From NCBI GenBank assembly GCA_030700315.1, contig JAUYJO010000011.1, positions 1 to 42,624 of the forward strand: a stretch of 42,624 bases of DNA. Reading direction: 5' to 3'. Source of the DNA: Gallionella sp. Its GTDB lineage: Bacteria > Pseudomonadota > Gammaproteobacteria > Burkholderiales > Gallionellaceae. The first letter of the stretch is position 1. The number at the start of each line of letters is the position of its first letter. A program made the position numbers and the translations under genes. The notes under the pieces were generated by a model. That model was not told the DNA's origin, searched no databases, and saw nothing but the letters and a program-made list of their open reading frames with translations. This document shows, in pieces, positions 1 through 30,650 of this stretch.

Positions 1-75
1 ACCTCGCAACGCCTCCAAACCTACCTTCGCCTTGAACTCCGGGGTGTGGGTTTTACGCTTCTTCGCTTCGCTCAT
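1..75 (-). CDS. IS3-family transposase OrfA, N-terminal fragment (cut by window edge)
   Basis: The first 25 codons of a minus-strand reading frame start with ATG at 75. The fragment begins MSEAKKRKTHTPEFKAKV, the typical basic start of IS3-family OrfA, the helix-turn-helix subunit that binds the element ends and is usually joined to OrfB by a -1 frameshift. An AAGGA Shine-Dalgarno lies 7-11 bases upstream. The remainder is beyond base 1, so nothing can be said about whether it is intact. Confidence 0.8.
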   Translation of the reverse strand, partial: MSEAKKRKTHTPEFKAKVGLEALRG

Positions 76-134
76 TTCTTTTCTTCCTTTATGACAGCGC
101 ACATCTTAAACTGCTGTCTTGAAAACAGGGTCCA
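1..134 (-). mobile_element. IS3-family insertion sequence, left end (partial)
   Basis: Read on the minus strand, a likely terminal inverted repeat occupies about 115-134 and begins TGGACCCTGTTTTCAAGACA, the TG-start and layout usual for IS3-group ends. A leader follows, then an OrfA start codon at 75. The rest of the element lies outside the window, so its size, other end and any target duplication cannot be seen. Its edge is 126 bp upstream of the first reductase gene, so insertion may have changed that gene's upstream region. Confidence 0.75.
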
Positions 135-260
135 CTATATACGGTTGCATACATGTCAACGGCAGATGTCAAATAAGACGGATTTATTGCTCCATAAGGC
201 AACAGGCGTGTGTCAAAATATTGGGTGTGGCCGATCAATGCCGAATGGATTCAATATTCA

Positions 261-2681
261 ATGACTGAGAAATTCAAGATAGCCATAATTGGCGCAGGTC
301 CGGCCGGCTTGTCTGCGGCTGCGCATGCTGCCGAACTGGGAATCCCGCATATCCTTTTGGAAGCCGGGCAGTTTCCTGCCAATACCATCCATAAATATCA
401 AAAAGGCAAACTTGTCATGGCGGAGCCTGCTGTGCTTCCGCTCAGAAGTCCGTTGACGTTTGCAGCAGGGCCCCGTGAAAATATCCTTGAAACATGGGGC
501 CAGGATATTCAGAGATGCCAGGTCAATCTGCACCTGGATACGCAGGTCGATGGAATTAAAGGCGAGCGCGGCAATTTTTTTATCACTTCGCCTTCCGGTA
601 AAACCATCAATTCCGAGTTTGTGGTACTGGCAATCGGGCTGCAAGGCAACATTAACAAACTGGGTGTTCGAGGTGAAGATCTGCCCAATGTGCAATATCA
701 ACTCGATGACCCGGAAGAGTTTAAAGACGAAACTATCGTGGTTGTGGGTGGCGGCGATGCCGGCGTAGAAAATGCGCTTGCACTCGCACAGCAGAATCGG
801 GTGATTCTGATCAATCGCGAGGAAGAGTTTAGCCGTTGTAAGGAAGGCAACTTTATCCTGCTGCAAGCCGCCATCAAGGCGGGTCGTATTGAACCCCGGG
901 TAAGTTCAAGGATAGAACATATCGATGCCGAAGCAGCAAATAACTTTCTGCTGCAGGTCGTTGCAAAAACTCCCGAGGGCGTCGAGATCATTAATTGCCA
1001 TCGCGTTATTGCGCGTCTTGGCGCCAGTCCGCCGCGTAAACTGCTGGAAAGTTTCGGTGTGAAATTTCCCAATAGCGACACGGCTTCTGCGCCAGAACTA
1101 TCGGAACAATACGAATCGAATATCCCCGGCCTCTATATCATCGGTGCGCTTGGGGGTAGCCCGCTCATCAAGCAAGCGTTGAATCAGGGTTACGAGGTAA
1201 TCGAATATATCCTCGGGAACTCGGTGGAGGCGGCGGACGAACCTCTCCTCAAGCAAAAAATTTCCGGCTTCAACGCTTCATGCTCTGTCAATGAGGGGCT
1301 CGCCATTATCCGGCGCAACGCGCCTATATTAGCCGGGCTTAACGCGTTGCAGTTGCGCGAACTCCTCCTTGAAAGCAATGTGTTGACCCCCAAGCCGGGC
1401 GAAATTATTTTCAAATATGATGATTACACCAGCAGCTTTTTCTCAATTCTCGAAGGCGAGCTCGCTGTTCTGGTTAAAGCCAAGGATGGCAGTGAAATTT
1501 ACTTTCAAGTCAAGGCGAGGAATTTTTTTGGTGAAATGGGGCTGATATCCGGACGCCGCCGATCCGCCACAGTCAAGGCAATTACGGATTGTGTGCTTAT
1601 CGAAACACCGCGCCGTTCGATGCTTAAATTGATCAACTCCGTGGAGTCTGTGCGTCGAAAGCTCGACGAAGTATCGATGAAGCGGGTAGTGCGCAATTGC
1701 CTGACCAACACGCTGCCGGAAAGTGAGCTCAATTATTTGTTGAAGGGTGCAACAATCAAACGATACAAAGCCGGAGATGTCATATTTAATCAGGGTGATA
1801 AAGCCGACGGGCTATATCTGATACGGCGCGGCTCAATAATAATTTCCCGCAAGATAGGGGGGAAAGAGGAGGTATTGTCATACATTGTCACGGGTAATTA
1901 TCTCGGCGAAATGGCGCTTGTTTCGGAACGACCTCGCTCCGCAACAGCCCGTGCAGCCTCGGAAACAGAGATTGTCTTGCTCAGGGCATCTGAGGTTATC
2001 GCGGTGCTGGAGCGCAATACCGAGCTGCGGGATCAGCTCGTCTTACGCTATCGCGAATATGCCGCTTATGATAAAAAAAGAGGCGAGCAACAGGGTAAGC
2101 TGGAAAGTTTATTTAATTTTCTTATTCAGCAAGGGGTGGGCGAAGCGACAGATGTGTTGCTGATCGATTATTCGCTTTGCATCCGTTGCAACCGTTGTGA
2201 AGCCGCCTGTGCCGATACGCACAAAGGCATTCCGCTATTTAAACGTGAAGCCGGCATTACTCATGGCCATGTTCATTTGCCCAACGCTTGCCGCCATTGC
2301 GAGCATCCCTATTGCATGTTGGATTGTCCACCTAATGTTATTCACAGGTCGGTTAACGGTGAGGTATTCATTGCAGAGGGCTGTATCGGGTGTGGTAATT
2401 GCAAAAATAACTGTCCTTATGACGCCATCCAGATGGCCGTCGTTGATCCAAATTTCAAGAAGCCGAATTTATGGCAAGCACTGCTGGGGCACGCTAATCG
2501 TGGTGGGGTGGAACACATCTCCGATGATATTTTAGCCAAGAATGCAATCAAGTGTGACTTGTGCAAGGATAATCTGAGTGGGCCAGCCTGTGTACGGTCA
2601 TGCCCGACGGGAGCCGCCTTGCGCGTCAGCCCGGAAGATTTATCTCAGACTATGCGCGGCAGTTCTGTGGAAGCAGAATAA
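261..2681 (+). CDS. FAD/NAD(P) reductase fused to two cyclic-nucleotide-binding domains and a 4x[4Fe-4S] ferredoxin domain (module 1)
   Basis: The protein has 806 residues. An N-terminal FAD-binding Rossmann motif (IIGAGPAG, about residues 9-16) and a second dinucleotide motif (VVVGGGDAG, about 161-169) mark a two-dinucleotide-binding flavoprotein of the thioredoxin reductase/YpdA type, but the CxxC redox pair of thioredoxin reductases is not apparent. Two Crp-like beta-barrel domains follow (about 365-460 and 485-570), each keeping a phosphate-cassette-like GEMxL...RSAT stretch. The C-terminal part (about 640-781) has 16 cysteines in four groups (CxxCxxCxxxC, CxxCx4CxxxC, CxxCxxCxxxC, CxxCx8CxxxC) as in DmsB/NrfC-type polyferredoxins. 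It was probably cytoplasmic and passes electrons between NAD(P)H and the membrane protein encoded 33 bp downstream. The start at 261 aligns with the paralogue at 9705; an earlier ATG at 210 adds 17 unsupported residues. No strong Shine-Dalgarno is seen. The reaction direction is unknown. Confidence 0.88.
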   Translation: MTEKFKIAIIGAGPAGLSAAAHAAELGIPHILLEAGQFPANTIHKYQKGKLVMAEPAVLPLRSPLTFAAGPRENILETWGQDIQRCQVNLHLDTQVDGIKGERGNFFITSPSGKTINSEFVVLAIGLQGNINKLGVRGEDLPNVQYQLDDPEEFKDETIVVVGGGDAGVENALALAQQNRVILINREEEFSRCKEGNFILLQAAIKAGRIEPRVSSRIEHIDAEAANNFLLQVVAKTPEGVEIINCHRVIARLGASPPRKLLESFGVKFPNSDTASAPELSEQYESNIPGLYIIGALGGSPLIKQALNQGYEVIEYILGNSVEAADEPLLKQKISGFNASCSVNEGLAIIRRNAPILAGLNALQLRELLLESNVLTPKPGEIIFKYDDYTSSFFSILEGELAVLVKAKDGSEIYFQVKARNFFGEMGLISGRRRSATVKAITDCVLIETPRRSMLKLINSVESVRRKLDEVSMKRVVRNCLTNTLPESELNYLLKGATIKRYKAGDVIFNQGDKADGLYLIRRGSIIISRKIGGKEEVLSYIVTGNYLGEMALVSERPRSATARAASETEIVLLRASEVIAVLERNTELRDQLVLRYREYAAYDKKRGEQQGKLESLFNFLIQQGVGEATDVLLIDYSLCIRCNRCEAACADTHKGIPLFKREAGITHGHVHLPNACRHCEHPYCMLDCPPNVIHRSVNGEVFIAEGCIGCGNCKNNCPYDAIQMAVVDPNFKKPNLWQALLGHANRGGVEHISDDILAKNAIKCDLCKDNLSGPACVRSCPTGAALRVSPEDLSQTMRGSSVEAE

Positions 2682-2714
2682 AACGGCAAAACTTAATTCA
2701 GGACGGGCATATAT

Positions 2715-3644
2715 ATGCAGCAAAGCGTATTGGAGTACAAAAATTATCGGTATTTTAAAATCGCCAGCTTGCTGATGATTTTTGCCGTGATGGCTTATTT
2801 ATTCCATCAACCTGCTACGGGCATTTACGCTTATGGGGGGACCTGGCTGGGTTATGTGCTGGGGATTTTGTCGACATTAATTGCCATCGTGCTGGCGCTG
2901 TACGGGGTTCGCAAGCGCTTGGTGTCCATGCGCAGGGAACGGCGGAGCTTGTCCAATGCTTCGTTACCGCAACTGAATGTTGCAAATCGTCGAAAAAATG
3001 AAGCGAATTGGCTGCGTCATCATGGCGCAACGCTTCAAGGTTGGCTTTCTGCGCACACCTATCTGGGTGTTGCCCTCGTCGTGCTGGCCACGCTTCATAC
3101 CGGTTTTCAGTTTGGGTGGAATGTTCATACGCTGTCCTATGTTTTGATGATGGTCGTTGTTGTTAGCGGTTGCTATGGCACTTATGCTTATTTGCGCTTC
3201 CCACGTTTGATGACAGCCAATATGGGCGGAAGAGATACTTTTGATGCCTTGCTGCTTGAAATTGACGATCTTGATAAGCAGGCGAGTGTCAAGTCCCTTC
3301 AGTTTTCTGATGAAATCTGTGCGCTTGTGCTCAAGGCCAGGCAAGAAACGCGCATTGGCGGAAATTTTTTCCAACAATTGATGGCATACCAGCACAAATG
3401 CCCGACCGCCCAAGCCGTAAAACAGCTACAAGTATTGGGCAAAAACCTGAAGTACGATCAACTAAAATCTTTCGATGACCTTTATATCGTCGTGGCGCAG
3501 AAAGATGCTCTGGTAAAACGGGTTCGGCGGGATGTAATGTACAGAGCACGCATGGAGTTCTGGCTTTATTTGCACGCGCCGTTTTCAATGGCATTTCTGG
3601 CAGCACTTGTGGCGCATATTGTCCCCGTATTTTTTTACTGGTAG
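2715..3644 (+). CDS. Multi-helix membrane protein, probable haem-b electron carrier (module 1)
   Basis: This 309-residue protein has two N-terminal hydrophobic helices, a basic cytoplasmic loop, two helices in the middle (about residues 110-155), a long soluble stretch and a C-terminal helix pair. Histidines sit at helix positions that could ligate haem b: HTYLG and LHTGF in the middle, LHAPFS and AHIVPVF near the C-terminus. I do not recognise a named family; the layout recalls cytochrome b561 or ferric-reductase-like membrane subunits. It is clearly a paralogue of the gene at 6299-7282, and both directly follow a paralogous reductase, so a membrane partner that relays electrons from the Fe-S domain is the natural inference. 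It ends with the same FFYW tetrapeptide as its paralogue. Confidence 0.82.
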   Translation: MQQSVLEYKNYRYFKIASLLMIFAVMAYLFHQPATGIYAYGGTWLGYVLGILSTLIAIVLALYGVRKRLVSMRRERRSLSNASLPQLNVANRRKNEANWLRHHGATLQGWLSAHTYLGVALVVLATLHTGFQFGWNVHTLSYVLMMVVVVSGCYGTYAYLRFPRLMTANMGGRDTFDALLLEIDDLDKQASVKSLQFSDEICALVLKARQETRIGGNFFQQLMAYQHKCPTAQAVKQLQVLGKNLKYDQLKSFDDLYIVVAQKDALVKRVRRDVMYRARMEFWLYLHAPFSMAFLAALVAHIVPVFFYW

Positions 3645-3993
3645 CGCGAGAATTTCGATGTGCGCCAGCTCAAATGTCAACCCGCACACGCTCGCTGCCC
3701 GGCACCCGGACTCGCTACCCGACACAAGGCGTGCTGTACCAATTCTGTGGATATAAAGCTCGACCATGCCATGCCTCCATAATCGCGTTTCCGCGGCTTC
3801 CGGGCATATTTCGCGGCAGGAAATACCTTTATCGTTCAGGCTTAAGTGCCATTTTGAGGGAACTTTATGCAGGGACTATTGACATCGCGCGTCTTAATAC
3901 TGGAAAATGGCCGCGCAGCACAGTCTTGAACATTACAATCTTGAACATTACAATTTGAACCTTATAAACTTAACCTGGAAGAGGTAATTACCC
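3645..3993. other. Intergenic region with a 15-bp tandem repeat
   Basis: No convincing gene lies here. Near the right end the 15-base unit CTTGAACATTACAAT occurs twice head to tail (3925-3939 and 3940-3954), followed by a partial third copy (TTGAAC). A clear Shine-Dalgarno (GGAAGAGG, around 3976-3983) belongs to the cytochrome gene downstream. The tandem repeat lies about 40-70 bp upstream of that start, where a promoter or regulator site would be expected, but I recognise no specific binding motif. Confidence 0.5.
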
Positions 3994-4443
3994 ATGCAAA
4001 AAATATCTTGTACGCTGCTCGCGTTATTTGGCTTTATCAGTCTTTCTGCTCAAGCGGCAGATAATATTAGCGGCCAGTTCGCCAGCCAGTTCAATGTTGC
4101 ACAAACCCTTGCCGCAGATTACTTGCAAGAAGCCAAGAAGAGTGACAAACATGCAGCCTTGTCCGCAGAAGCAGGGCGCGCGTTCTATACCAAAAAAGTG
4201 GTTATGGACGGCAAAGAGCTTTCCTGTTCGGCATGTCATACGGACAATCCGGCCAATGAAGGCAAGCATAATGAGACCGGCAAGCCGATCAAGCCTGTAG
4301 CTATTTCCGCTAATCCAGAAGCCTTTTCTGATATAAAGAAGGTGGAAAAGAATTTTGCGAAGCATTGCCGTGAATTGTATGGCAAAGATTGCTCCGCTCA
4401 GGACAAGGGTAATTACCTCACTTACTTGCTGTCGGTCAAATAG
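3994..4443 (+). CDS. DUF1924 / SHP-like monohaem cytochrome c
   Basis: This 149-residue exported protein starts with a signal peptide (cleavage likely after SLSAQA, near residue 22). One haem c site, CSACHT, lies at residues 78-83. The C-terminal block with a second cysteine pair (HCRELYGKDCSAQDKG) matches the DUF1924 / sphaeroides haem protein (SHP) pattern, in which the pair forms a disulfide and the haem can bind small ligands such as O2 or NO. It should act in the periplasm, taking electrons from a partner cytochrome. A strong GGAAGAGG ribosome site supports the start, and a terminator follows at once. SHP genes usually sit beside a dihaem cytochrome and a cytochrome b; here the neighbour is the b-type module 1 membrane protein. 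Confidence 0.85.
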   Translation: MQKISCTLLALFGFISLSAQAADNISGQFASQFNVAQTLAADYLQEAKKSDKHAALSAEAGRAFYTKKVVMDGKELSCSACHTDNPANEGKHNETGKPIKPVAISANPEAFSDIKKVEKNFAKHCRELYGKDCSAQDKGNYLTYLLSVK

Positions 4444-4470
4444 TCGAAGCAGAAGAAAAGCACCAGAAGC

Positions 4471-4504
4471 AAAAAATGGCCCGCATTATGCGGGTCATTT
4501 TTTT
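4471..4504. terminator. Bidirectional rho-independent terminator
   Basis: An A run (4471-4476) precedes a stem whose core is CCCGCA (4480-4485), loop TTA, TGCGGG (4489-4494), extended by a G-T pair, a G-C pair and a T-A pair, followed by seven T (4498-4504). The flanking A and T runs make it usable from both strands. It lies between the convergent arms of the two electron-transfer modules, 27 bp after the SHP-like cytochrome stop. Confidence 0.9.
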
Positions 4505-4649
4505 GCGCAACTTTATATCAATTCTGGCCAATTGCTGGGTGCGGCAGCTTCCCCCTTCCATTTTCAGGGCTAAGGGGCTGGCGTTGTGGCTATGTTGCTT
4601 CTCCCTGAGCCGTTACCGGCTCTTGCTCAATTCAGGATGCGGTGGCGCA

Positions 4650-6293
4650 TCACTTTGCGCCCGGGTGAAACCGGTGGCAGCTGTCGCAGGTGCTTCTTAT
4701 TTTCCCCTTGGCAGGCTTGCTGCCGTCATGGCATTCGCGGCATTTTTCTATGGTCGGCATAGCTATGTCAGCGCTGACTTTTGAGTTCATCTTGTCGTGG
4801 CATTCCGTGCAATTAATTGTGTCATGTTTGGAGTGTGCAAACACGGCGCCCGGTTGCCAATCGCGAGTGATGTGCAGTGGCGCAACCTTCCACGGAACCT
4901 GATTATCCCCGCTCGGTTCAAATTCATGGCATACGCCGCACTCAAGATCTTCCCCATTTTCTTTGAATAGCGTGGCAGCGGCATACTTCCGGGCAAGATT
5001 GTTGGCACACTCCAACGTGTGCTTGGCCGCATTACCCGCTCCGCTTGCTGGCGCACAACCGGCCATATTTTTGGCCGGCGAATCAGTCAGCCGTTTTGTA
5101 TAAAATTCACGCACCTTGTCCATTGCTTCGCGCTCGGACCCATGGGGGGCTTTGCCCTCAACAGGCTCCGTGAAATACAGCGTGTGGCAACGGGATTGCT
5201 GGCAGGTTTCGCGCAGGGTCATGGGCGCGAAATGTGTTCCGGCTTCATCTATTTTGTGGCAATCCTGGCACACCATCACTGTTCGTCCCAGAGGGCTTGA
5301 CACTCCTTTTTTGTCCAGATGAACTTGGTGTGAATATTTAAGCCGTGATTTTTCAATCAGCTTCCCTTTTTCGGTTTGTGGGACGCGAGTGATATTTTTT
5401 CCATCCTGCAAAGTAATATGGAAAGGTGGATGGTCCGAGCCAAAATCACGCGTATTGGCGCGTGTTGCGTTGGGGTTTTTACGTTTCAGATCGCCATGGC
5501 AAGAAACACAACCTGAAGAATCATGCAGAATCAGCCCAGCTCGCCCGACGTGATCCAGATGACAGCTCGTGCAGCGCACTTTCTTGAAAATACTCGCGTG
5601 TAAATCCTTTTTTGCCAAGTGCTTGGCAACTTGCTTATGGCATGCCGAACATGCATCATCGGAGACTGGCTGGAAAGGGCGTTGATGGCAGGTTGAACAT
5701 TTCGCGCCGATTACACGATGCCCGCCCGCCAGGGAGCCAGGGCTCCATGAATCAGTCAAGGTAACGGGTAGTGCGGCCTGCCATTTGTCCAATGCCGGTG
5801 AAATGCTCGGCAGCATGGGCAGCAGCAGAAATATGAAAATAATGCAGGCTGCCAGGCCGAAGCCCAACTTGCGTTTGCTTAATCCCAAATCTGCCAGGGT
5901 GACGGGCGCAGCCCGGCGGGCTTTGGCCGTATCCTGCTCCGGCAGCGGCTGAGCCATTTCTACCGACAGGGCGATATCGTGCCCATCCGGCGCAGGTTCG
6001 GCGATAAGCAGATAAGGGCCTATCTCGACGCGCGTTCCTGGCGAGAGCGCGGCGCTGTGTTCAATGAAGCCATTGATGTTGAGGGTGGCGTCTTTTTCCC
6101 CCTCAATGTACAGCGTGCCATCTTCGGAGCGTTTGATGGTGGCGTGCAGCAGATGGACACGATGGTCGAGCAGATTGATCTTGCAGGGAGCGCTTCGGCC
6201 AATCTGGATCGATTCGCCGCTAATGGTGCTTTCTTTGCGGATCGGCAACCCTTGCGGATTGCGTGAGACTTGAATCAACAGGCAAGAGATCAT
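4650..6293 (-). CDS. FHA-like domain fused to a membrane-anchored decahaem cytochrome c
   Basis: In this 547-residue protein, residues 1 to about 110 resemble a forkhead-associated (FHA) domain, a phosphothreonine-reading fold (IGRSAPCKINL and a following strand-rich stretch). One transmembrane helix follows near residues 138-162 (KRKLGFGLAACIIFIFLLLP). The rest carries nine CxxCH motifs (CSTCH, CSACH, CTSCH, CVSCH, CQDCH, CGVCH, CTECH, CRECH, CDSCH) plus one CxxxxCH (CQQSRCH), so about ten c-haems of cytochrome c3/c7 style. Topology would put FHA in the cytoplasm and haems in the periplasm. It starts 5 bp after the stop of the b-type membrane gene, so it is the third gene of the module 2 operon and its probable periplasmic electron partner. 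The FHA assignment is by appearance; the haem count is direct. Confidence 0.88.
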   Translation of the reverse strand: MISCLLIQVSRNPQGLPIRKESTISGESIQIGRSAPCKINLLDHRVHLLHATIKRSEDGTLYIEGEKDATLNINGFIEHSAALSPGTRVEIGPYLLIAEPAPDGHDIALSVEMAQPLPEQDTAKARRAAPVTLADLGLSKRKLGFGLAACIIFIFLLLPMLPSISPALDKWQAALPVTLTDSWSPGSLAGGHRVIGAKCSTCHQRPFQPVSDDACSACHKQVAKHLAKKDLHASIFKKVRCTSCHLDHVGRAGLILHDSSGCVSCHGDLKRKNPNATRANTRDFGSDHPPFHITLQDGKNITRVPQTEKGKLIEKSRLKYSHQVHLDKKGVSSPLGRTVMVCQDCHKIDEAGTHFAPMTLRETCQQSRCHTLYFTEPVEGKAPHGSEREAMDKVREFYTKRLTDSPAKNMAGCAPASGAGNAAKHTLECANNLARKYAAATLFKENGEDLECGVCHEFEPSGDNQVPWKVAPLHITRDWQPGAVFAHSKHDTINCTECHDKMNSKVSADIAMPTIEKCRECHDGSKPAKGKIRSTCDSCHRFHPGAK

Positions 6294-6298
6294 TTAGG

Positions 6299-7282
6299 CT
6301 ACCAATAGAAAAATACAGCCACAATGTGAGCGATGAGCGCTGCCAATAATGCGATAGATAACGGCACATGCAGATATAGCCAGCCATCCAGTCGAGCTTT
6401 CAGCATGATGTTGTAGCGCGCTTTTAATACCAGTTTTTCTTTGTGCAAAAGCACGGAATACAGATCTCGCATTAATTTTGGGTGATCGCCATTGATATAT
6501 TTTTTGCCGAGATTTTGTATCTGTCGCGTGGCAAACGTGGTCGGGCAATGATGCTGGTGGCCGCTTAATTGTTGAAATATATTGCCTCCTATGCGTGTTT
6601 CATGGCGCGCCCTTAATACCAATGCATTCACCTCGTCCGGCAAGTCAAGCGCGCGGATTCTGGCCAACTCGTCAAGCTCGGTAATTTTGAGCAGTAAATC
6701 TTCCAGCGTATCCCCGGCCATATTCTGAGTGATTTGCCGGGGGTAATTCAGGTAGGTATACATCCCGTAAAATCCGCTGGCAATCACCACCACCATCAAT
6801 ATATAAGACAAGGTGTGAATATTCCAGCCAAACTGAAAACCGGTGTGCAACGAAGCCAATACAAGAAGCGAGAAACCCAGATAGACGTGCGAGGAAAGCC
6901 ATCCCCGCAGCGTGCCACCGTAGCGCCAGCTTTCTCTGGCCGGGCGTTTTCTGCGCTCGGATTTTGGTTGCGTAGCAAAACCCGATTGAGCGCTACCATT
7001 GCTGTGATTTTGGTTGTGATTTTGCCCCGCGCTTTCGTGATAGTGCCTTCTATCTGATATTTTTGGAGTGCGGCGTTTGGCGACCCCATACCACATCAGC
7101 AAGAACATAATCAGGGTCGAAATTATACCCAACGTATAACCCAACCACGTTCCGCCAAAAGGATGTTCGGCTGTCTCTACCAATGCATATGCCACAATAC
7201 ACGAGGCCACCAGCAAGCTGGATAGCTTGAAATACCGGCAATTATTGTATTTCAGCAGGGTGGCATGTTGCATCATATTCAT
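6299..7282 (-). CDS. Multi-helix membrane protein, probable haem-b electron carrier (module 2)
   Basis: This 327-residue paralogue of the gene at 2715-3644 has the same order: two N-terminal helices, a longer basic loop rich in His/Gln/Ser (HNQNHSNGSAQSG), a helix pair with HVYLG and LHTGF histidines, a soluble segment with the shared RARHETRIGGNIFQQL stretch, and a C-terminal pair with LHVPLS and AHIVAVFFYW. Its start codon overlaps the stop of the reductase gene by one base (TAATG), indicating translational coupling. A second Met two codons in would also fit. It probably links the cytoplasmic Fe-S domain to the decahaem cytochrome encoded next. Confidence 0.82.
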   Translation of the reverse strand: MNMMQHATLLKYNNCRYFKLSSLLVASCIVAYALVETAEHPFGGTWLGYTLGIISTLIMFLLMWYGVAKRRTPKISDRRHYHESAGQNHNQNHSNGSAQSGFATQPKSERRKRPARESWRYGGTLRGWLSSHVYLGFSLLVLASLHTGFQFGWNIHTLSYILMVVVIASGFYGMYTYLNYPRQITQNMAGDTLEDLLLKITELDELARIRALDLPDEVNALVLRARHETRIGGNIFQQLSGHQHHCPTTFATRQIQNLGKKYINGDHPKLMRDLYSVLLHKEKLVLKARYNIMLKARLDGWLYLHVPLSIALLAALIAHIVAVFFYW

Positions 7283-9705
7283 TATTGCTCCGTTTGCATG
7301 TTTTCCCAGCCTTCCTCAACATAGCCCAGAAAAACCTCCGGGCTGACGCGAAAAGCCCCGCCGGTCGGGCAAGCGCGGACACAAGCGGGTAAGCCGAGAA
7401 TGCCTTTGCACATATCGCATTTCACGGCTTTCTTGGCGGACGTCTCGCCTGCCTCACTCTGCGCATTTGAATGATGGTTGCCCGTACCGAATATTATCTG
7501 CAAAATACTGCGTTGCTGGTGTGCTTTTCTGGTTGCCATTTGAATGACGCCATAAGGGCAGTTGTTCTGGCAATTTCCGCATCCGATGCAACTGTCCCCG
7601 ATAAATACTTCGCCATTGACCGAACGATGAATCGCGTCGGGCGGGCAATCTTTCATGCAATGGGGATGCTCGCAATGCCGGCATGAAGCGGGAACATGAA
7701 TTTGTTCATAGGTCGGGCCGGCTGCCCGGTTAAGCCGCGAAGTCCCATCATGCACATCCGCGCAGGCGGCTTCGCAATTATTGCAGCGTATGCACCGTGA
7801 ATAGTCAATCAGCAGTATGTCTGTCGCCTCCCCCACTCCCTGATCTATCAGGAATTTGACCAGGCCGCTGAATTTACCGGATAAAGCGGAATCGCCCATG
7901 CGCACCCGTTCCAGGTAGCGGCTGTCAACCTTGCTGCGTATCGAGGAATTTCTCAGCATCACCGCGCTAACCCGCTCGGCTTCGAGCAAAACCACCTCGG
8001 TGGGCGAGGCGGCACGCACGGTCGCAGAACGTGGCATGTTGGAAACCAAAGCCATCTCCCCGACATAATTACCTGCGGAGACATAGGCCAACACCACCTC
8101 TTTGCCGGCGATAATGCGGGATACGGTAACGGAGCCGCGCCGGATCATATATAACCCATCCGCTTTATCGCCCTCATTAAACAGCGTTTCCCCGACTGCG
8201 TATTGTTTAAACTGGGATTCCTGAACCAGATGATCGAGTTCGCTTTCCTGGAGCGAGGCATCCAGATAATTTCGCACAATCCGCTTGAGTGATACCTCAT
8301 CCAGCCTGCGCTGCACACCAGTGGCTGTTTGCAGCAATTTAAGCATCGAACGGCGCGGTGTTTCGACAAGCACACAATCCTCACCGGCAATCACGGTACC
8401 CGAGCGGCGGCGTCCGGACAACAAACCCATCTCACCAAAAAAGTCTCCCGCATTCAGTGTGAAAATGGCGGGGGCGTCATCCTTGCCTTCGACACGTATG
8501 GTGACTTTGCCTCTCAGGATCGAGAAAAAACTGTTGCTATAGTCATTCTGTTTAAAAACCACTCCGCCTGGAGGCGGTGCAAAAATCGTACTATCCAGCA
8601 TGAACTCGCGCAATTGCAGGGTGGTGAGCGATGCCAACAGCGGCTGGTTGTCCCTGATCAGCGCAATACCATCGTTAACCGAGTGAATGCCGAGGATGCC
8701 GGAAAACTTTTCCCGCAGCAGCACTTCGTCTGCCGGCTCCACTGGATTTCCCAGGATGTATTCGACGACCTCGTATCCCTGATTCATTGCCTGCTTGATG
8801 AGCGGGTAGCCGGCTAATGTTCCCACGATATATAAGCCTGGCACGTTTGATTCATAGCGCTCCGACAGTTGCGGCACAGAAGCGATGTCGTTGTTCGGAA
8901 AGCTTACGCCAAAGCTTTCCACCAACCGGCGCGGTGGATTAGCGCCAAGGCGCGCGATAATACGATGGCAGCCGATATGCTCCAGACCCTGCGGCGTTTG
9001 CACGACAAAACTAACGGGCAAGCCACCTGCAGAAGAATTTTCCACGCACTTTGCCCAAGTGCTGACGCGCGTTTCAATTTTTCCTTCCGTGACGGCCGCC
9101 ATCAACAGATCGTAATTGAGCTCCTTGCAATTGCTGAATTCCTCGCTACGATTGATCAGAATCACCCGATTTTGCCCGGCGAGCGCAAGCGCATTTTCTA
9201 CAGCGGCATCGCCGCCGCCGACCACCACAATGGTTTCATTGCAAAATTCATTCGGATCATCCAGTTGATACTGCACTTCTGGAAGGTCTTCACCCGGCAC
9301 CCCCAGCTTGCGGATATTCCCTTGCAGCCCGATGGCGAGCACCACAAATTCGGCAGTCAAGGTCTCGCCTGACAACAGCGTAATTTTGAAATCTCCGCAT
9401 TGCCCCGAGATGGCGGAAACAGTTGCACCTGTTCGCAGGTTGACCCGATGCTTGGCGATTTCCTGTTGCCATGTCTCCAGAATTACTTCTCGAATTCCCG
9501 CACCGAAGCTCATGGTGCTGCGCAATGGCAGTTGCTTAGGCTCCGCCATCACCAGCTTTCCCTTTTGGTAGCGATGTAGTGTGTTGGCCGCATGTGGCGC
9601 GGATTCGAGAAGAATGTGGGAAACACCCTGTTCGGCTGCACGAGCCGCGGCAGAAACCCCTCCCGGCCCCGCGCCAATGATCGCAATTTTGAAATTTTCA
9701 CTCAT
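7282..9705 (-). CDS. FAD/NAD(P) reductase fused to two cyclic-nucleotide-binding domains and a 4x[4Fe-4S] ferredoxin domain (module 2)
   Basis: This 807-residue full-length paralogue of the gene at 261-2681 is collinear over its whole length. It keeps IIGAGPGG (FAD), VVVGGGDAA (NAD(P)), two Crp-like domains with FGEMGLLSGRRRSGT and VGEMALVSNMPRSAT cassettes, and all 16 ferredoxin cysteines (CIRCNNCEAAC, CRHCEHPHCMKDC, CIGCGNCQNNC, CDMCKGILGLPACVRAC). No DNA-binding helix-turn-helix follows the barrels, so they are more likely sensor or regulatory domains than transcription factors. It is first of a three-gene operon with the membrane protein and the decahaem cytochrome. Ligand, electron acceptor and direction are unknown. 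Confidence 0.88.
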   Translation of the reverse strand: MSENFKIAIIGAGPGGVSAAARAAEQGVSHILLESAPHAANTLHRYQKGKLVMAEPKQLPLRSTMSFGAGIREVILETWQQEIAKHRVNLRTGATVSAISGQCGDFKITLLSGETLTAEFVVLAIGLQGNIRKLGVPGEDLPEVQYQLDDPNEFCNETIVVVGGGDAAVENALALAGQNRVILINRSEEFSNCKELNYDLLMAAVTEGKIETRVSTWAKCVENSSAGGLPVSFVVQTPQGLEHIGCHRIIARLGANPPRRLVESFGVSFPNNDIASVPQLSERYESNVPGLYIVGTLAGYPLIKQAMNQGYEVVEYILGNPVEPADEVLLREKFSGILGIHSVNDGIALIRDNQPLLASLTTLQLREFMLDSTIFAPPPGGVVFKQNDYSNSFFSILRGKVTIRVEGKDDAPAIFTLNAGDFFGEMGLLSGRRRSGTVIAGEDCVLVETPRRSMLKLLQTATGVQRRLDEVSLKRIVRNYLDASLQESELDHLVQESQFKQYAVGETLFNEGDKADGLYMIRRGSVTVSRIIAGKEVVLAYVSAGNYVGEMALVSNMPRSATVRAASPTEVVLLEAERVSAVMLRNSSIRSKVDSRYLERVRMGDSALSGKFSGLVKFLIDQGVGEATDILLIDYSRCIRCNNCEAACADVHDGTSRLNRAAGPTYEQIHVPASCRHCEHPHCMKDCPPDAIHRSVNGEVFIGDSCIGCGNCQNNCPYGVIQMATRKAHQQRSILQIIFGTGNHHSNAQSEAGETSAKKAVKCDMCKGILGLPACVRACPTGGAFRVSPEVFLGYVEEGWENMQTEQ

Positions 9706-9850
9706 GGTCCAGACGCACCTTTTACAATTAAGCCGACATGTGGCGCGAAAGCAAAATTCAGTCAGTCAGAGAGAGAAAAAGTTACCCAACATGCCGCCAG
9801 ATTGCGATTTCCAAGCTGGCGTAGTTTTTTGCGGCCGCGAAAATCCGCGT

Positions 9851-9949
9851 CAATATGGCGAGAAGAGCGCTTGCTTGCAGGTTGCGAGCGCGGAAATGCC
9901 GCGTTCGCAACCATGCCCCAGCGTATCGCCCCGACGCCGCGCCATATTG
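9851..9949. repeat. Nested inverted repeat (REP/BIME-like)
   Basis: Outer arms CAATATGGCG (9851-9860) and CGCCATATTG (9940-9949) are perfect complements. Inside them GGTTGCGAGCGCGG (9880-9893) pairs with CCGCGTTCGCAACC (9899-9912) over 14 positions, with one G-T wobble and a 5-base loop. There is no T run after the inner stem, so it is not a standard terminator. Only one copy is in this window, so a dispersed-repeat nature is a guess. Confidence 0.6.
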
Positions 9950-10068
9950 AAGCAGGCTTTAGATAGCCGTTCACACACCGAATTTCGCCGCTGTGACGGT
10001 ATTTTTTATTAGAAAATCCCTTACCGATCAGCGCGGACTGTATCAACTCTTCACAACATTTCATATAT

Positions 10069-10092
10069 GCCGAAATATCTATATATTTCGGC
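10069..10092. repeat. Perfect AT-rich palindrome
   Basis: GCCGAAATAT (10069-10078) and ATATTTCGGC (10083-10092) are perfect complements around a 4-base centre (CTAT). It could be a regulator site or an RNA hairpin. It is about 365 bp from the nearest start codon (9705), far for an operator. Confidence 0.55.
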
Positions 10093-10188
10093 CTAACTAT
10101 ATTTACTTAAGCACGCAAAAAGTTGTGTGATTTGTGGCAACTACTCAGGTCGAAGCAGTGTGCTCGAAAAATAGCCACAACGCCAGTC

Positions 10189-10211
10189 CCTTCCCCTTGG
10201 AAGGGGGAAGG
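10189..10211. repeat. C/G-rich hairpin
   Basis: CCTTCCCC (10189-10196) pairs with GGGGAAGG (10204-10211) across a 7-base loop. It belongs to a set of similar C-run/G-run intergenic hairpins in this window (near 30650-30720 and 30926-31055). No T run follows. Confidence 0.5.
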
Positions 10212-10536
10212 TTAGGATGGCGGCTATGACACGGCGTTGCGAAGCATCTGGGGCGGGAATGGCCGCCTCACACCCGCTCCCGCAATCGGCTGGCTTCGCC
10301 AGTAACGTGTCGCGGGATGTGGGGGTGGGAGGGTGGAGCCATCGCAAAGTGTCTTTTACCCCACCTTTCTACTCCCCCTCCCAGTTGCCCCCTCGCTTCG
10401 CTCTCCACCTTGAATGGGGAGGAGTTTGCGCTTCGGAATTGCGTGCATAGAGTAGTCTTGCAGGGGGACGTATCGGGCGTTTCGGGTGCATTCGAAAGTG
10501 GTGGTAATTCTATCGATAGCGTGCGCACAGCGCAGG

Positions 10537-19499: not shown

Positions 19500-20168
19500 C
19501 TACGGCAGTTTGCCTGCTGCGACCATGCGGTTGAACAGTTGCGGGCGCGATACCCAGATCATGATGTCGTCGAAATTCGGATTTGGAACGTCACTTTGGT
19601 AAGTTGTATCGAAACTTCCGCCATTCTGTCCATCTGCCGCAAAGTTTTTTCCTGTCGAATAGATGATCGCGATAGGCCGCTCGATGGTGCTGGTAAGCGT
19701 TGAGCCTGCCGTGTTCCGAACCGAGAGCGGGATTGACGTGATGGTTGTCAGGGTGATGGGTACAGAGGATGCAAAAGCCGGGTCTACCCGATATAGCCAT
19801 TTCCCGGCCCAAGCGTCGGACTCCGGAACACCCAGAGTTTTCCAAGGCAGATAATTGTCAGATGAGGGGGTCGCGCAGGCGGCATCCGCCTCGCCATAAT
19901 TGGCATTGCCGGTATCCGAAGTGGTGGCAGGACAGGGCAGTTTGCCGTTTATCACCGCGTAACCATACAAAGCATCTTTGATTTCATTCAGTTGCTTGCG
20001 CGTTTCACTGATGCGCTGCGATTCCCTTTGCGCGGACAAGGTCGGCAGCAACCCGCCCAGCAGCAGGGTGATGATAGCCAGCACAATAGCCATTTCTACC
20101 ATGCTGAAGCCGCCCGATTTGTTCCGGGTGTTAAGCTTTATTGTTGGGGGCTCATCCATGGCATTCAT
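19500..20168 (-). CDS. Prepilin-like protein with N-terminal methylation motif (pilus cluster, last gene)
   Basis: This 222-residue protein has the type IV prepilin start GGFSMVEMAIVLAIITLLLGG, with the cleavage Gly before Phe and Glu at +5, followed by a pilin-type alpha helix. The globular part carries LPCPATTSDTG and LPWKTLGVPESDAW, a pattern shared with its upstream neighbour. It is probably a minor or specialised pilin processed by a prepilin peptidase not encoded here. The start at 20168 is chosen because its ATG overlaps the preceding stop (ATGA); a second Met lies three codons in. Confidence 0.85.
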   Translation of the reverse strand: MNAMDEPPTIKLNTRNKSGGFSMVEMAIVLAIITLLLGGLLPTLSAQRESQRISETRKQLNEIKDALYGYAVINGKLPCPATTSDTGNANYGEADAACATPSSDNYLPWKTLGVPESDAWAGKWLYRVDPAFASSVPITLTTITSIPLSVRNTAGSTLTSTIERPIAIIYSTGKNFAADGQNGGSFDTTYQSDVPNPNFDDIMIWVSRPQLFNRMVAAGKLP

Positions 20169-21679
20169 GGGCTGGAACAACTCATGTCGAGAGTGAGGTC
20201 GGTCTTGATGCAAACGAGCCAGTCGTTGCCGGCGTGGGCGAATTGCCCAAATTGGCTGTTGGACGGGGCGTTGATATTGATGGCTGCCGCATTGATGCCT
20301 TCGAGGTAATTTTCCGCCGAGTTTCTGTCGTTCAGGGTTGTGCGCATCTGCCCGGTTTGGCGGCTTCCGACGAAAATAACGATGCCGGCATAGGGGCCGC
20401 TGCCGTCGACGTAAAGGCATTTTCGCCCGGGTGTGCCCGGGCTGTTGCACAGGTCTGTCGCTACCGCAGTGGAATTTGGCTCGAAATCCTCGGCGACGGC
20501 GTAAAACAGATGATCTTTCCATTTTTCAAACCAACCATCCGGGCTATCTTTGTACGTTACGCCGTCCGTTGTGGTCGGATAGCCCGCCATGGCGAGGAAA
20601 TCCGGGCAATTGTCCGGTCGAAACAGCCTGCAGCCAGTGCTGCTACTTGACGTGCAACTGCTGAAGGACGGCAGGACGCTGCTAGTAGCCAGGTACGAGC
20701 TGCGGAGATGGAATGGAATACGGCCTGTGAGTAGATTGGCAGAGTCGTTAAATTTGTCGTTTTGATAGGTGTCTGGTGCGGCATCGGCAAGGGCAATAGG
20801 TGCGGCCCATGGTAGACGGTTGTTTCCGTAAGTGGCGATGCACTCGGCAGTTTTTTGCAAAAGATTTTGCAGTGATATGTTTAAATCCGAACGCTTCTCT
20901 ATGCCACGGGTGAGAATATGGTCGCGTGAAATCCACAGTAATCGGTCATTGTAGCTGGCCACAGGTTCGGCAACCGCAACCACGGATATTTCATCTGCCG
21001 CCGAATTCATCGCCGCGTTGCTGATAGTTGCGATTGAGTCGAGAAAATGAGCGGGGTCGTAGTCGCCGCCGCATTCGCCAATGCCGCCAGTCCGGTCTTG
21101 CCCGGTCAGCGGTTGGCCGGGAGAGAAAATCACCGCCACGGGTCGCGATTCTGCGGTGTTTCCAGCGATCATCGTGTTGCCGTCTGCACCAACGATTTGA
21201 AATTGCCCGAGGCTGTCCCAGTTGAGCAGATCGGTTTTTGGGTTGGCTTTGAAGCTGCCCGACACCGCGTACCACAGGCAGTTGCCCCAACCGTCGCGCA
21301 GAGGCGGCAGGCCGAGGGTTTTCCAGGGCAGATAGCCGACGACGGTCACTCCCTTGCCGCCACAATTGGGGTCTTCGTCGCCCTCGTTGCCCAGAGCGCT
21401 GCTGGCGTCAGGGCAGGGAAGATGCCCGGGTACAAAGACGATTCGTTCTGGCGTGCCTTTGGGATGGCGCTCCGGGTAGGTTATCGCATAACTGATCAGC
21501 GCCTCTTTCGCCTGAGCCAGCGCGGCGGAAGTGGTTTCCTGACGCGCGTTTTTCACTGCGCTTGCGCTGAGTGAATTGACCAGTACGGCGGCGATCCCCA
21601 TCACCATAATGACCAGCATCAGCAGCAGCGCGGCGCCGCGTTGTCTGGTTCTGGAAAAGCGATGTTGTGGCGGGTGCAT
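20165..21679 (-). CDS. Large PilX/prepilin-like pilus protein
   Basis: This 504-residue protein has an N-terminal RGAALLLMLVIMVMGIAAVL helix, as in PilX-like pilus assembly proteins (a G-A cleavage site without the usual Phe/Glu). The ectodomain has many cysteines (at least ten) and the motifs LPCPDASSALGNEG and LPWKTLGLPPLRDGWG, related to those of the next gene. It may sit at the pilus tip or serve in adhesion, by analogy with large minor pilins such as MshQ or PilY-associated pilins; that is inference. It ends overlapping the next gene and starts 6 bp after the preceding stop. Confidence 0.8.
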   Translation of the reverse strand: MHPPQHRFSRTRQRGAALLLMLVIMVMGIAAVLVNSLSASAVKNARQETTSAALAQAKEALISYAITYPERHPKGTPERIVFVPGHLPCPDASSALGNEGDEDPNCGGKGVTVVGYLPWKTLGLPPLRDGWGNCLWYAVSGSFKANPKTDLLNWDSLGQFQIVGADGNTMIAGNTAESRPVAVIFSPGQPLTGQDRTGGIGECGGDYDPAHFLDSIATISNAAMNSAADEISVVAVAEPVASYNDRLLWISRDHILTRGIEKRSDLNISLQNLLQKTAECIATYGNNRLPWAAPIALADAAPDTYQNDKFNDSANLLTGRIPFHLRSSYLATSSVLPSFSSCTSSSSTGCRLFRPDNCPDFLAMAGYPTTTDGVTYKDSPDGWFEKWKDHLFYAVAEDFEPNSTAVATDLCNSPGTPGRKCLYVDGSGPYAGIVIFVGSRQTGQMRTTLNDRNSAENYLEGINAAAININAPSNSQFGQFAHAGNDWLVCIKTDLTLDMSCSSP

Positions 21680-21685
21680 GGCAAA

Positions 21686-22063
21686 CTACGGGTTCGAATC
21701 CGTTACCGGGTTGACGACCACTCTTTGCCCGACCTTGATCTCGACCGGATGCGATTGGCCACGGAGGGTAACTGGCTCGCTTTCCGGCGTGTGCTGCTTG
21801 CTGTTGCCGGCGGGCTGCGGCACGCCGTTGATCCAGACGGTGCGTTCGCCGCCGTGTTTTTGTACGATGCCGTTGAGGGTCAGCGCGTCGATATTGTCCG
21901 GCTGGCCGGTATTGCCTGGCTCGCCGGTATGGGGCTGTTGGCCGCGTTCGAGCAGCGCGCGCTGTTGCGGGGTAAAAAACAGGCGGCCCAGCTCTTCCGC
22001 GTTGGCTATATCTGCCGCCGTGAACAACAGGAAAGCCATGGCTGTTTTGATCGCCGTGTTCAT
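21686..22063 (-). CDS. Small exported pilus assembly protein (MshK/PilP-position)
   Basis: This 125-residue protein has a signal peptide (MNTAIKTAMAFLLFTAADIANAEE). The C-terminal half (DALTLNGIVQKHGGERTVWINGVPQ ... VGQRVVVNP) resembles the strand-rich MshK/PilP/GspC-type module that contacts a secretin. It follows a PilO-like gene, the same relative place as mshK after mshJ. The start at 22063 overlaps the previous stop (ATGA) and is preferred over an ATG 14 codons earlier. Confidence 0.75.
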   Translation of the reverse strand: MNTAIKTAMAFLLFTAADIANAEELGRLFFTPQQRALLERGQQPHTGEPGNTGQPDNIDALTLNGIVQKHGGERTVWINGVPQPAGNSKQHTPESEPVTLRGQSHPVEIKVGQRVVVNPVTDSNP

Positions 22064-22680
22064 GGGGTATTCCGGTTTTTCAGCGTAATCCAGCCGCCGC
22101 TGCATTCCGCCTTGAGATAGGCCGTGGCGGTCGGGTGGTCAGGGTCTTTAGTGTCGGTGGCACCGGGGCGTTGCAGCGTGCAACTTTCCAGTTGATACCG
22201 CCCCTTTATACCGGTGCGCAGCGCAGCGAAAAAATTCAGGAGCTGTGTCTCGTGGAGCAGATCGAATTGCAGTTTCATTTCGCTGTAGTGGATTTCAAAA
22301 TTGCCGCTGTCGATCGGCGGTTGTGAGGCGTAGTTTTTTTGCGGCGCGATGCGGTAGCGGAAATCCGCCACCAAGTTTTTTTGACGGAGCTGCTCCAGGC
22401 CTTCCATCCAGTCCAGGCGCTGATCGTCGCCGATGATATTTCGTTCGAGCAACGCGCCATACTCACCCGCGTAGATCGCCATATTCTCCTGATCCTGAGA
22501 GGCGGTCGCCAAGCGGTTGCGCGCATCGTTGAGCCGGCTCTGCGCGCTGCCCAACTCGTTTTGCGCGCTTTGCACATATTCGCCGCTGCCGTACAGGATG
22601 ACCGCGCTGATAAGCGCAGATGCGCAAGCTGCCAGAATGCTCCAGCGTATCGGGTGAAAATCTGCTGTGGAGAGTTTCAT
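22060..22680 (-). CDS. PilO/MshJ-like inner-membrane pilus protein
   Basis: This 206-residue protein has one N-terminal membrane helix (SILAACASALISAVILYGSG), a coiled-coil-like stretch (about residues 35-70, SAQNELGSAQSRLNDARNRL) and a C-terminal domain, the PilO/GspM-like layout. It would form the periplasmic side of the inner-membrane alignment complex with the PilM/N-like neighbour upstream. Its ATG overlaps that neighbour's TGA, and its own stop overlaps the next start, so these genes are translationally coupled. Confidence 0.75.
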   Translation of the reverse strand: MKLSTADFHPIRWSILAACASALISAVILYGSGEYVQSAQNELGSAQSRLNDARNRLATASQDQENMAIYAGEYGALLERNIIGDDQRLDWMEGLEQLRQKNLVADFRYRIAPQKNYASQPPIDSGNFEIHYSEMKLQFDLLHETQLLNFFAALRTGIKGRYQLESCTLQRPGATDTKDPDHPTATAYLKAECSGGWITLKNRNTP

Positions 22681-24191: not shown

Positions 24192-24389
24192 TAACGTGAA
24201 CCTCGCGCAGCGATTCGTTTGCTTGGCTCCGCCCCCCTCGCTTCGCTCTCCCCGCTTGCGGGATAACCAGCGACTTGACTGGAGCAGTTTTCCAGTCTAG
24301 TCGAATGGCTAGTAGTTCCACCAGAGGATTGAGGAGAGGGAGCGGGCATGGTGAGTTCCATAATCAGTAGTGGTTGCTCGCCATGGCGG
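24192..24389. other. Spacer within the pilus cluster carrying a dispersed motif
   Basis: The only long gap within this otherwise tightly coupled cluster (about 200 bp). It contains CCCCCTCGCTTCGCTC (about 24235-24250) next to CCCCGCTTGCGGG, the same motif as in the gene-free regions at 10388 and 31019. It may be an inserted repeat that split the operon, or carry an internal promoter. Confidence 0.45.
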
Positions 24390-25592: not shown

Positions 25593-25593
25593 G

Positions 25594-27294: not shown

Positions 27295-27317
27295 TCTTTT
27301 GTTTTTTTGCTTTTGGC

Positions 27318-28421: not shown

Positions 28422-28432
28422 GTTTGTGTTTC

Positions 28433-28603
28433 CTAAGCCGTCATGGACGGATCAGAATAGAAAGTTTTCGTAGGGCGGAAAAGCATGTCCTGAGCGTAGT
28501 CGAAGGGCGTAGCGCCTTCCGCCGCATGGATTTCCAAAATGGCGGATAACGCTGCGCTCATCCGCCCTACGTGCTTCTTGCGCGTGTCGAGGAGCAGGCT
28601 CAT
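28433..28603 (-). pseudogene. Duplicated 5' end of the TPR gene, interrupted by a repeat
   Basis: A 56-codon frame begins MSLLLDTRKKH at 28603, two bases after the secretin stop, then runs into the inserted 103-bp element and ends at 28433. Bases 28572-28603 match 28391-28421 (the start of the present TPR gene) with only a few differences. The frame has no meaningful continuation, so it looks like the former coupled start of the TPR gene cut off by insertion. It could still be translated as a short leader. Confidence 0.6.
28469..28571. repeat. 103-bp MITE-like repeat with perfect 11-bp inverted ends
   Basis: CGTAGGGCGGA (28469-28479) and TCCGCCCTACG (28561-28571) are perfect complements. The interior contains the widely seen dispersed core TGTCCTGAGCGTAGTCGAAG and the block GGCGGATAACGCTGCGCTCA. 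A related copy lies at about 30780-30865. It encodes nothing and resembles the GTAGGGCGG-type intergenic repeats common in proteobacteria. Confidence 0.75.
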
Positions 28604-28604
28604 A

Positions 28605-30374: not shown

Positions 30375-30650
30375 ACTTTTTCCCCTGCGCCGTATTGGCG
30401 CGAAGCCTGGCAACTTTGCGGGTATGGCTCAATACGCCGGCGGTTCGCAACTCCGCCTAGGGCGCAACACTACGCTAAAAGTGAGAGCGGGTGTGATAAA
30501 TGTTTGGTGCGATAAATATTTGTCGGTAGCTCTGCGGCAGCTCATTCGCCGCAGAGCGCGCTGCATTCACCTATCGGGTATGGCAGCAGCCACCCCTGAT
30601 GATGAAGCGTCGCGCAAGACTGCTACACCTTTTACCCCAAACCCCCTCCA

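Follow-up and report, generated by a model that had tools for sequence, protein, structure and literature searches.

A conserved flavin, iron–sulfur and haem module in a Gallionella genome is a candidate cyclic-nucleotide-gated exporter of electrons from NAD(P)H

A 42,624-nucleotide contig of Gallionella sp. (JAUYJO010000011.1, assembly GCA_030700315.1), hereafter the window, carries between positions 261 and 9705 two related gene modules. These are built from a reductase-like protein with flavin and iron–sulfur parts (FLAV), a histidine-rich membrane protein (MEM) and a membrane-anchored cytochrome with an FHA-like domain and ten c-haem motifs (FHA-decahaem). Gene content, domain order, conserved ligands, co-occurrence and fusion show that FLAV, MEM and FHA-decahaem form a conserved unit, and both the unit and its order of cofactors are well supported. 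We read the three proteins as one inner-membrane, NAD(P)H-driven complex for electron export that would be gated by cyclic nucleotides, a reading to which we assign a probability of roughly 0.55. A bolder version, in which cAMP or another cyclic nucleotide opens a direct outflow of NAD(P)H electrons that bypasses the quinones and in a large subset of hosts reaches the cell exterior, is advanced only tentatively.

Evidence for a unit comes from relatives. In a survey of 397 Pseudomonadota genomes, MEM matched 38 genomes at E 0.001, of which 18 (E 2.4e-71 or better) were counted and 20 weaker ones (E 4.5e-14 or worse) were set aside; the E cut-offs were 1e-20 for FHA-decahaem, 1e-30 for the outer-membrane decahaem/propeller cytochrome considered below and 1e-20 for its barrel. 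MEM and FHA-decahaem were found in the identical 18 of 397 genomes, from 10 families, and the two genes adjoin in all 18, with a 0.8 kb gap in one (G093). A FLAV gene adjoins MEM in 17 of the 18; it was seen at full length in all 17 on longer DNA, the first survey having covered the last ~480 residues at most loci. Of 60 genomes sampled within the Gallionellaceae, the same 8 contain both MEM and FHA-decahaem, and FLAV adjoins in seven besides the window's own. The co-occurrence that an earlier note on this DNA proposed to test extends far beyond a single genome.

Homologous loci collected from the FLAV side gave a similar picture. Among the best 80 FLAV loci of at least 579, a set biased towards the window's own kind and overlapping in part with the family sample (G036 and L016, for example, are the same contig), MEM lies directly downstream in 58. 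FHA-decahaem follows next in 52 of these, and at the remaining 6 the available sequence stops in or just past MEM. Of the 22 loci where MEM is not downstream, 10 were checked and all 10 genomes contain MEM; at two Burkholderiales loci (L147 and L148) a longer cluster has FLAV at one end and MEM, followed by FHA, at the other. In two Magnetococcales FLAV and MEM are fused in one chain, and this fusion, together with the adjacency in 17 of 18 genomes, points to direct electron transfer from the iron–sulfur clusters to haem b. Hosts include Methylotenera, Lysobacter, Solimonas and Sphingobium as well as metagenome-assembled genomes named Gallionella, Ferrigenium and Sideroxydans, so that the module is not specific to iron or sulfur oxidisers. 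An annotated Sphingobium plasmid labels the three genes cyclic nucleotide-binding domain-containing protein, hypothetical protein and cytochrome c3 family protein. One Burkholderiales contig (L023) carries two FLAV genes, and two MEM copies share one contig in its genome; in Methylotenera oryzisoli (L058, 5073-9062) a single gene separates the module from an upstream gene for a large protein that by eye resembles PAS/GGDEF/EAL signalling proteins.

The features of the locus in the window are as follows.

FLAV1, 261..2681, plus strand: 806 residues from the ATG at 261, with an alternative GTG start at 210
FLAV1 head, residues ~1–330, plus strand: TrxR/YpdA-type FAD-NAD(P) domain
FLAV1 cyclic-nucleotide-binding domains, residues ~376–460 (approximate) and 500–586, plus strand: Pfam cNMP_binding
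FLAV1 four [4Fe-4S] cluster domain (predicted), 2157..2651 (residues ~633–797), plus strand: HycB/DmsB-like, 16 Cys, by phmmer and motif count
MEM1, 2715..3644, plus strand: 309 residues, five-helix membrane protein
MEM1 predicted haem ligands, plus strand: conserved histidines H114, H128, H287 and H301, with H138 also conserved
SHP-like monohaem cytochrome c, 3994..4443, plus strand: 149 residues; DUF1924, PF09086
Terminator-like hairpin between the converging genes, 4480..4494, no strand: consensus match only
FHA-decahaem, 4650..6293, minus strand: 547 residues
MEM2, 6299..7282, minus strand: 327 residues, predicted two-haem b membrane protein
MEM2 predicted haem ligands, minus strand: conserved histidines H132, H146, H305 and H319, with H156
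FLAV2, 7282..9705, minus strand: 807 residues, architecture as in FLAV1

Module 1 (FLAV1-MEM1, plus strand) is opposed to module 2 (FLAV2-MEM2-FHA-decahaem, minus strand), with the SHP gene in between. A check of the open reading frames confirmed the two collinear, face-to-face FLAV-MEM pairs of the earlier note, with the sizes given there. Module 2 is compact: the stop codon of FLAV2 and the start codon of MEM2 have one base in common, and a 5-base gap precedes the FHA-decahaem start. The two FLAVs share 60% sequence identity and the two MEMs 50%. Terminator-like sites (17 in a scan of positions 1-10500 versus 12.6, standard deviation 3.3, in shuffles) and promoter-like sites (16 versus 9.9, standard deviation 2.9) were given no weight.

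The order of cofactors is read from conserved ligands, beginning with FLAV. In 89 aligned FLAV rows, each covering at least half of the profile at E < 1e-100, the 16 ferredoxin cysteines are kept in their four motifs in every row, as they are in 11 of 11 further full-length FLAVs; the flavin and nucleotide glycines are kept in all rows except one truncated row, and likewise in the 11. The earlier note recognised these flavin and iron–sulfur parts and overlooked two cyclic-nucleotide-binding domains that lie between the flavin head and the ferredoxin tail of each FLAV (Pfam cNMP_binding, E 3e-40 and 4e-40, 136 bits versus a cut-off of 27.5, two stretches each). The phosphate-binding cassette of such domains contains a Glu and an Arg spaced nine residues apart. 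The corresponding residues E425, R434 and E550 are present in 89 of 89 FLAV rows and R559 in 87, and all four are found in the 11 additional proteins. Two intact cassettes between the halves of a reductase probably act as a gate on electron transfer. The cysteines of the FLAV1 head are less uniform (C246 in 87 of the 89 rows, C193 in 59 and C86 in 5), and the flavin domains of FLAV1 and FLAV2 contain no CxxC motif, which makes a disulfide-reductase role of the YpdA/TrxR kind unlikely; this candidate function was rejected.

MEM1 has five hydrophobic helices, the third of which falls under threshold in MEM2. Five MEM2 histidines are kept in 79 to 82 of 82 MEM sequences (H132 and H146 in 82 of 82, H156 in 81, H305 and H319 in 79 of 79 with three sequences gapped), while any other MEM2 histidine is kept in at most 41. 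We infer haem b from these conserved histidines. The two ligands of each helix are 14 residues apart and loop charge gives an N-in topology in which both helices run from cytoplasm to periplasm, so that two b haems would stack across the membrane.

FHA-decahaem consists of an N-terminal FHA-like domain, one transmembrane helix (residues 143-161) and ten c-haem motifs, nine CxxCH and one CX4CH. Basic residues ahead of the helix place the FHA-like domain in the cytoplasm and the haems in the periplasm. All ten motifs are kept in 62 of 62 rows covering at least 80% of the profile, a threshold that excludes the FHA-less cytochrome of genome G418 and retains duplicates. The FHA-like domain scores 23.4 bits with Pfam FHA, the cut-off being 20.7. 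Phosphothreonine-reading FHA domains have conserved GR, SxxH and N residues; here the Gly and Arg are kept in 62 of 62 rows, the His in 58 and the Asn in 34, and the Ser position is variable. Because Gly-Arg and mostly His are kept and the reader Ser is not, docking is more likely than phosphate reading for this domain. Hence the order flavin, Fe-S, membrane haem (b predicted) and periplasmic c haems suggested in the earlier note agrees with the domains and conserved ligands of the three proteins.

Despite their likeness, the two modules of the window do not descend from a local duplication. In a FastTree phylogeny (local support values, no bootstrap) FLAV1 and FLAV2 fall in two clades, A (9 rows, support 100) and B (14 rows, support 99), each with other Gallionellaceae. 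FLAV1 clusters with Gallionella and Ferrigenium sequences (nearest L005, 83% identity), whereas the FLAV2 clade holds Gallionella, Sideroxydans and the Magnetococcales fusions (nearest L016, 77%). A recent tandem duplication was rejected on these grounds; the paralogous inverted pairs of the earlier note are indeed related, but they are two old lineages side by side. The FHA-decahaem of the window shares 69% identity with that of L016 and 49% with that of L005 and is thus nearer the second clade, as is, less cleanly, SHP. In the simplest history, a first-type FLAV-MEM pair that had no decahaem of its own would have joined a complete second-type cluster of FLAV-MEM-FHA with opposed SHP. The host genome contains a single FHA-decahaem, and a tblastn search for a decahaem remnant after MEM1 (3600-4700) found nothing convincing; matches of 12-14 residues (E 0.001-0.01) at the end of that stretch proved to fall in the last part of the FHA gene. 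All four FLAV and MEM genes have open reading frames with intact ligands, from which we infer that module 1 probably shares the decahaem of module 2. Four FLAVs labelled Mycobacteriaceae, Pedobacter, Marinimicrobia and Klebsiella (L024, L056, L079 and L081) nest in proteobacterial sequences, L056 on a long branch, and are probably from misbinned or misnamed metagenome contigs.

SHP probably also belongs with module 2. The window SHP has 50-59% identity with its counterparts at seven clade-B loci and 41-46% with clade-A SHPs, although it shares only 47%, hardly over the clade-A values, with the SHP of L016, the nearest FLAV2 relative. The layout FLAV-MEM-FHA followed by opposed SHP recurs at five clade-B loci among the best 80 FLAV loci. 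On identity and layout SHP is less likely to be a component of module 1, with the L016 value as a caveat. SHP is not a fixed gene of the system: it is found at 16 of the 80 homologous FLAV loci and in 47 of the 60 Gallionellaceae genomes, 7 with the module and 40 without. A further SHP (DUF1924) gene of the host genome lies on a different contig (G000:C23:6849-7121).

In many relatives the cluster extends towards the outer membrane. A multihaem cytochrome of ~1,300 residues is encoded in the cluster at 25 of the 80 best FLAV loci, some of which end at contig edges; the two examples scanned contain ten CxxCH motifs and LVIVD repeats (decahaem/propeller). It is often accompanied by an HbpS-like protein and an outer-membrane barrel that has an aromatic C-terminal residue and ~18 modelled strands (mean pLDDT 64) and is nearest to the alginate exporter AlgE. 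Of the 397 genomes, 12 have the cytochrome and 13 the barrel, 12 have both, and every one of these belongs to the 18 module genomes. This confinement is strong but not independent evidence, as 9 of the 12 cytochrome genomes come from one family; four of the 12 still carry the cytochrome although it lies away from MEM, either on a separate contig or at a distance of 390-670 kb. The Mtr barrel has 26 strands, and it does not follow that a decahaem threads through the smaller barrel found here.

From these observations we infer an assembled complex, a direction, a gate and an acceptor. NAD(P)H would reduce the FAD of FLAV, and the electrons would travel along the four [4Fe-4S] clusters into MEM, where they would cross from the b haem near the cytoplasm to the one near the periplasm, to end on the ten c haems of FHA-decahaem, which is anchored in the membrane. 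The cyclic-nucleotide domains between flavin and clusters probably gate this transfer, and the cytochrome probably uses its cytoplasmic FHA-like domain to dock the reductase. Module 1 would probably feed the same decahaem as module 2. In many relatives electrons would probably continue through the outer-membrane barrel and the decahaem/beta-propeller cytochrome to the outside. A search of the window's genome found neither an outer-membrane cytochrome nor a barrel, an absence that is not certain given an assembly with 95% completeness and 5% contamination. Here the acceptor is probably periplasmic, and could be SHP, although SHP is also common in family genomes that lack the module, or other c cytochromes.

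Several results weigh against this reading. MEM2 matches PF01292 best at 25.7 bits, below the cut-off of 30.1; of five further MEM homologues, three give no match at E 0.01 and two fall below the cut-off. A comparison of MEM with solved structures gave no credible match, and in an AlphaFold model of the FLAV-MEM fusion the Fe-S and MEM parts are mostly at pLDDT <70, with no usable interface. Cyclic-nucleotide binding by FLAV is a prediction from conserved residues. The lack of outer-membrane parts in the window's genome counts against the full route to the outside. Half of the 18 module genomes (9, family f53) belong to a single family and are not phylogenetically independent samples; the hypergeometric co-occurrence values disregard kinship. 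The exception among the 18, G418 (L136), has MEM and a decahaem that lacks the FHA domain, and has no FLAV. Its MEM and decahaem genes lie beside an HbpS-like gene, and genes on the opposite strand resemble, by eye, those for cytochrome c maturation.

A family that appears sister to the module also argues against an obligatory NAD(P)H input. When 12 loci were taken from the 20 weaker MEM genomes, a cytochrome matching the FHA-decahaem model adjoined the MEM-like gene in 9; at the other three, and at L112, longer DNA revealed a neighbouring protein with ten CxxCH motifs in all four cases. None of the cytochrome matches in this weaker set covers the FHA-domain part of the model. Three of these four loci encode a protein that resembles FLAV in its cyclic-nucleotide and ferredoxin part and has no flavin head; Pfam found two cNMP stretches and ferredoxin domains in one such protein, and one stretch and ferredoxin in another (limited by the sequence end). 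At L149-L151 a cytochrome with 3-4 haems lies upstream of the sister cluster. Thus, with G418, these loci indicate that the core does not require NAD(P)H, and the conserved core may be the Fe-S clusters, b haems and decahaem, the FHA domain having been seen, at the loci examined, only alongside the flavin head.

These same loci lend support to the most serious rival, in which MEM trades electrons with the quinone pool, as in CbcL and the SHP operon, and FLAV is a second, regulated input or output. Diheme b proteins with multihaem c partners have been described or proposed as quinol oxidoreductases (CbcL, PMC9129911; SHP operon, PMC2909971). The adjacency of full-length FLAV to MEM in 17 of 18 genomes and the two fusions speak for a direct hand-over from Fe-S to haem b, and we consider the quinone-linked arrangement unlikely.

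Inward flow fares worse. Redox potential and the inside-negative membrane both favour outward transfer, and uphill NAD(P)+ reduction, one of the directions entertained in the earlier note, would oppose both and is thermodynamically unlikely; no proton-coupling or pump subunit that could supply the energy was recognised among the component proteins. A route from Fe(II), sulfide or an outer-membrane chain through the decahaem and MEM to NAD(P)+ for CO2 fixation is improbable: by established energetics NAD(P)+ (about -320 mV) lies far below such donors; heterotrophs such as Sphingobium and Lysobacter, moreover, have the module. In its favour, Gallionella, Ferrigenium and Sideroxydans, after which some host genomes are named, are genera of iron oxidisers, the cofactor order is reversible in principle, and according to section 8 of PMC10734462 porin-cytochrome systems are proposed for electron uptake in Gallionellaceae. 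That the module is instead mainly a redox or signalling device, with redox centres that serve sensing and not catalysis and with cyclic-nucleotide and FHA-like domains that report cell state, is very improbable, since two kinds of signalling domain are indeed conserved in one system but the ten c haems, the 16 conserved cluster cysteines and the outer-membrane extension in relatives suit electron transport better.

If the bolder version is correct, the complex would conduct electrons through the cell envelope straight from NAD(P)H, with a cyclic nucleotide as its post-translational control. The module offers a testable candidate for how ordinary aerobic Proteobacteria and iron oxidisers could send NAD(P)H reducing power to periplasmic or extracellular acceptors, free of quinones and under direct second-messenger control.

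Elsewhere in the window, minus-strand open reading frames at 19500-30413 resemble, from their translations by eye, a type IV pilus/MSHA or type II secretion cluster with a candidate assembly ATPase, inner-membrane protein, secretin and pseudopilins. Positions 31086-36737 encode a secreted-looking protein of 1883 residues, also judged by eye, with a metalloprotease-like start and leucine-rich repeats.

The decahaem itself has very probably been catalogued before. Table 1 of PMC10734462 lists, under 'Other', a Gallionellaceae pangenome cluster (403, 'Forkhead-associated protein') with 10 CXXCH motifs in 27 of 87 iron-oxidiser genomes. Section 8 of that paper gives no function, partners or operon for cluster 403, and 'cyclic nucleotide' and 'FHA' are absent from its main text; a decahaem listed there without function thus gains partners and context. 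'Forkhead' and 'cyclic nucleotide' are likewise absent from the main texts of PMC12442390, PMC8788666 and PMC5371394. Among the literature matches listed (titles and abstract starts, with preprints and most subscription papers outside the scope), no paper describes the assembled FLAV-MEM-FHA system, in keeping with the earlier note, which knew of no complex of this composition. None joins cyclic nucleotide-binding with multiheme, and one, on Methanosarcina, combines the LVIVD repeat with a cytochrome.

Parts of the module resemble known systems. The 16-Cys four-cluster domain is shared with formate dehydrogenase, DmsB and HycB subunits (phmmer to formate hydrogenlyase subunit 2, E 4e-19), but here it shares one chain with a flavin/NAD(P) head and a pair of cyclic-nucleotide domains, and there is no molybdoenzyme among the module genes. 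The FLAV head has the fold of YpdA/TrxR-type ferredoxin-NADP reductases (phmmer; Foldseek of the Magnetococcales fusion model, YpdA TMt 0.85), whereas the CxxC pair is missing from the FLAV1 and FLAV2 heads. As in the Mtr/Mto, PCC3 and Uet porin-cytochrome systems, relatives of the module have an outer-membrane barrel and a large multihaem cytochrome; the barrel of these relatives, by contrast, is AlgE-like with ~18 modelled strands and the cytochrome, in the two examples scanned, is a decahaem with LVIVD repeats, and neither was found in the window's genome.

The closest likenesses are to two inner-membrane systems. In CbcBA of Geobacter a transmembrane two-haem b part is joined to a periplasmic multihaem c part. 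The CbcL b domain has six transmembrane helices, against five predicted in MEM1. CbcL is described (PMC9129911) as a quinone oxidoreductase with b and c parts that passes electrons outward from the inner membrane, an architecture and hand-off like those proposed here. Its input is quinol, however, whereas that of the module would be NAD(P)H through FAD, four Fe-S clusters and cyclic-nucleotide domains, and in the module the b and c parts are separate proteins, the latter with an FHA-like domain. The SHP operon (PMC2909971) comprises SHP, which binds oxygen and nitric oxide, a diheme cytochrome c and a diheme cytochrome b thought to feed SHP. In the window, too, SHP has a membrane protein with two predicted b haems and a multihaem cytochrome c as neighbours, but the module cytochrome has ten haems rather than two and a flavin/Fe-S reductase is added. 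Thus, the principle of a membrane cytochrome b joined to a multihaem c exporter is already known, and the new part is apparently the signal-gated input from NAD(P)H.

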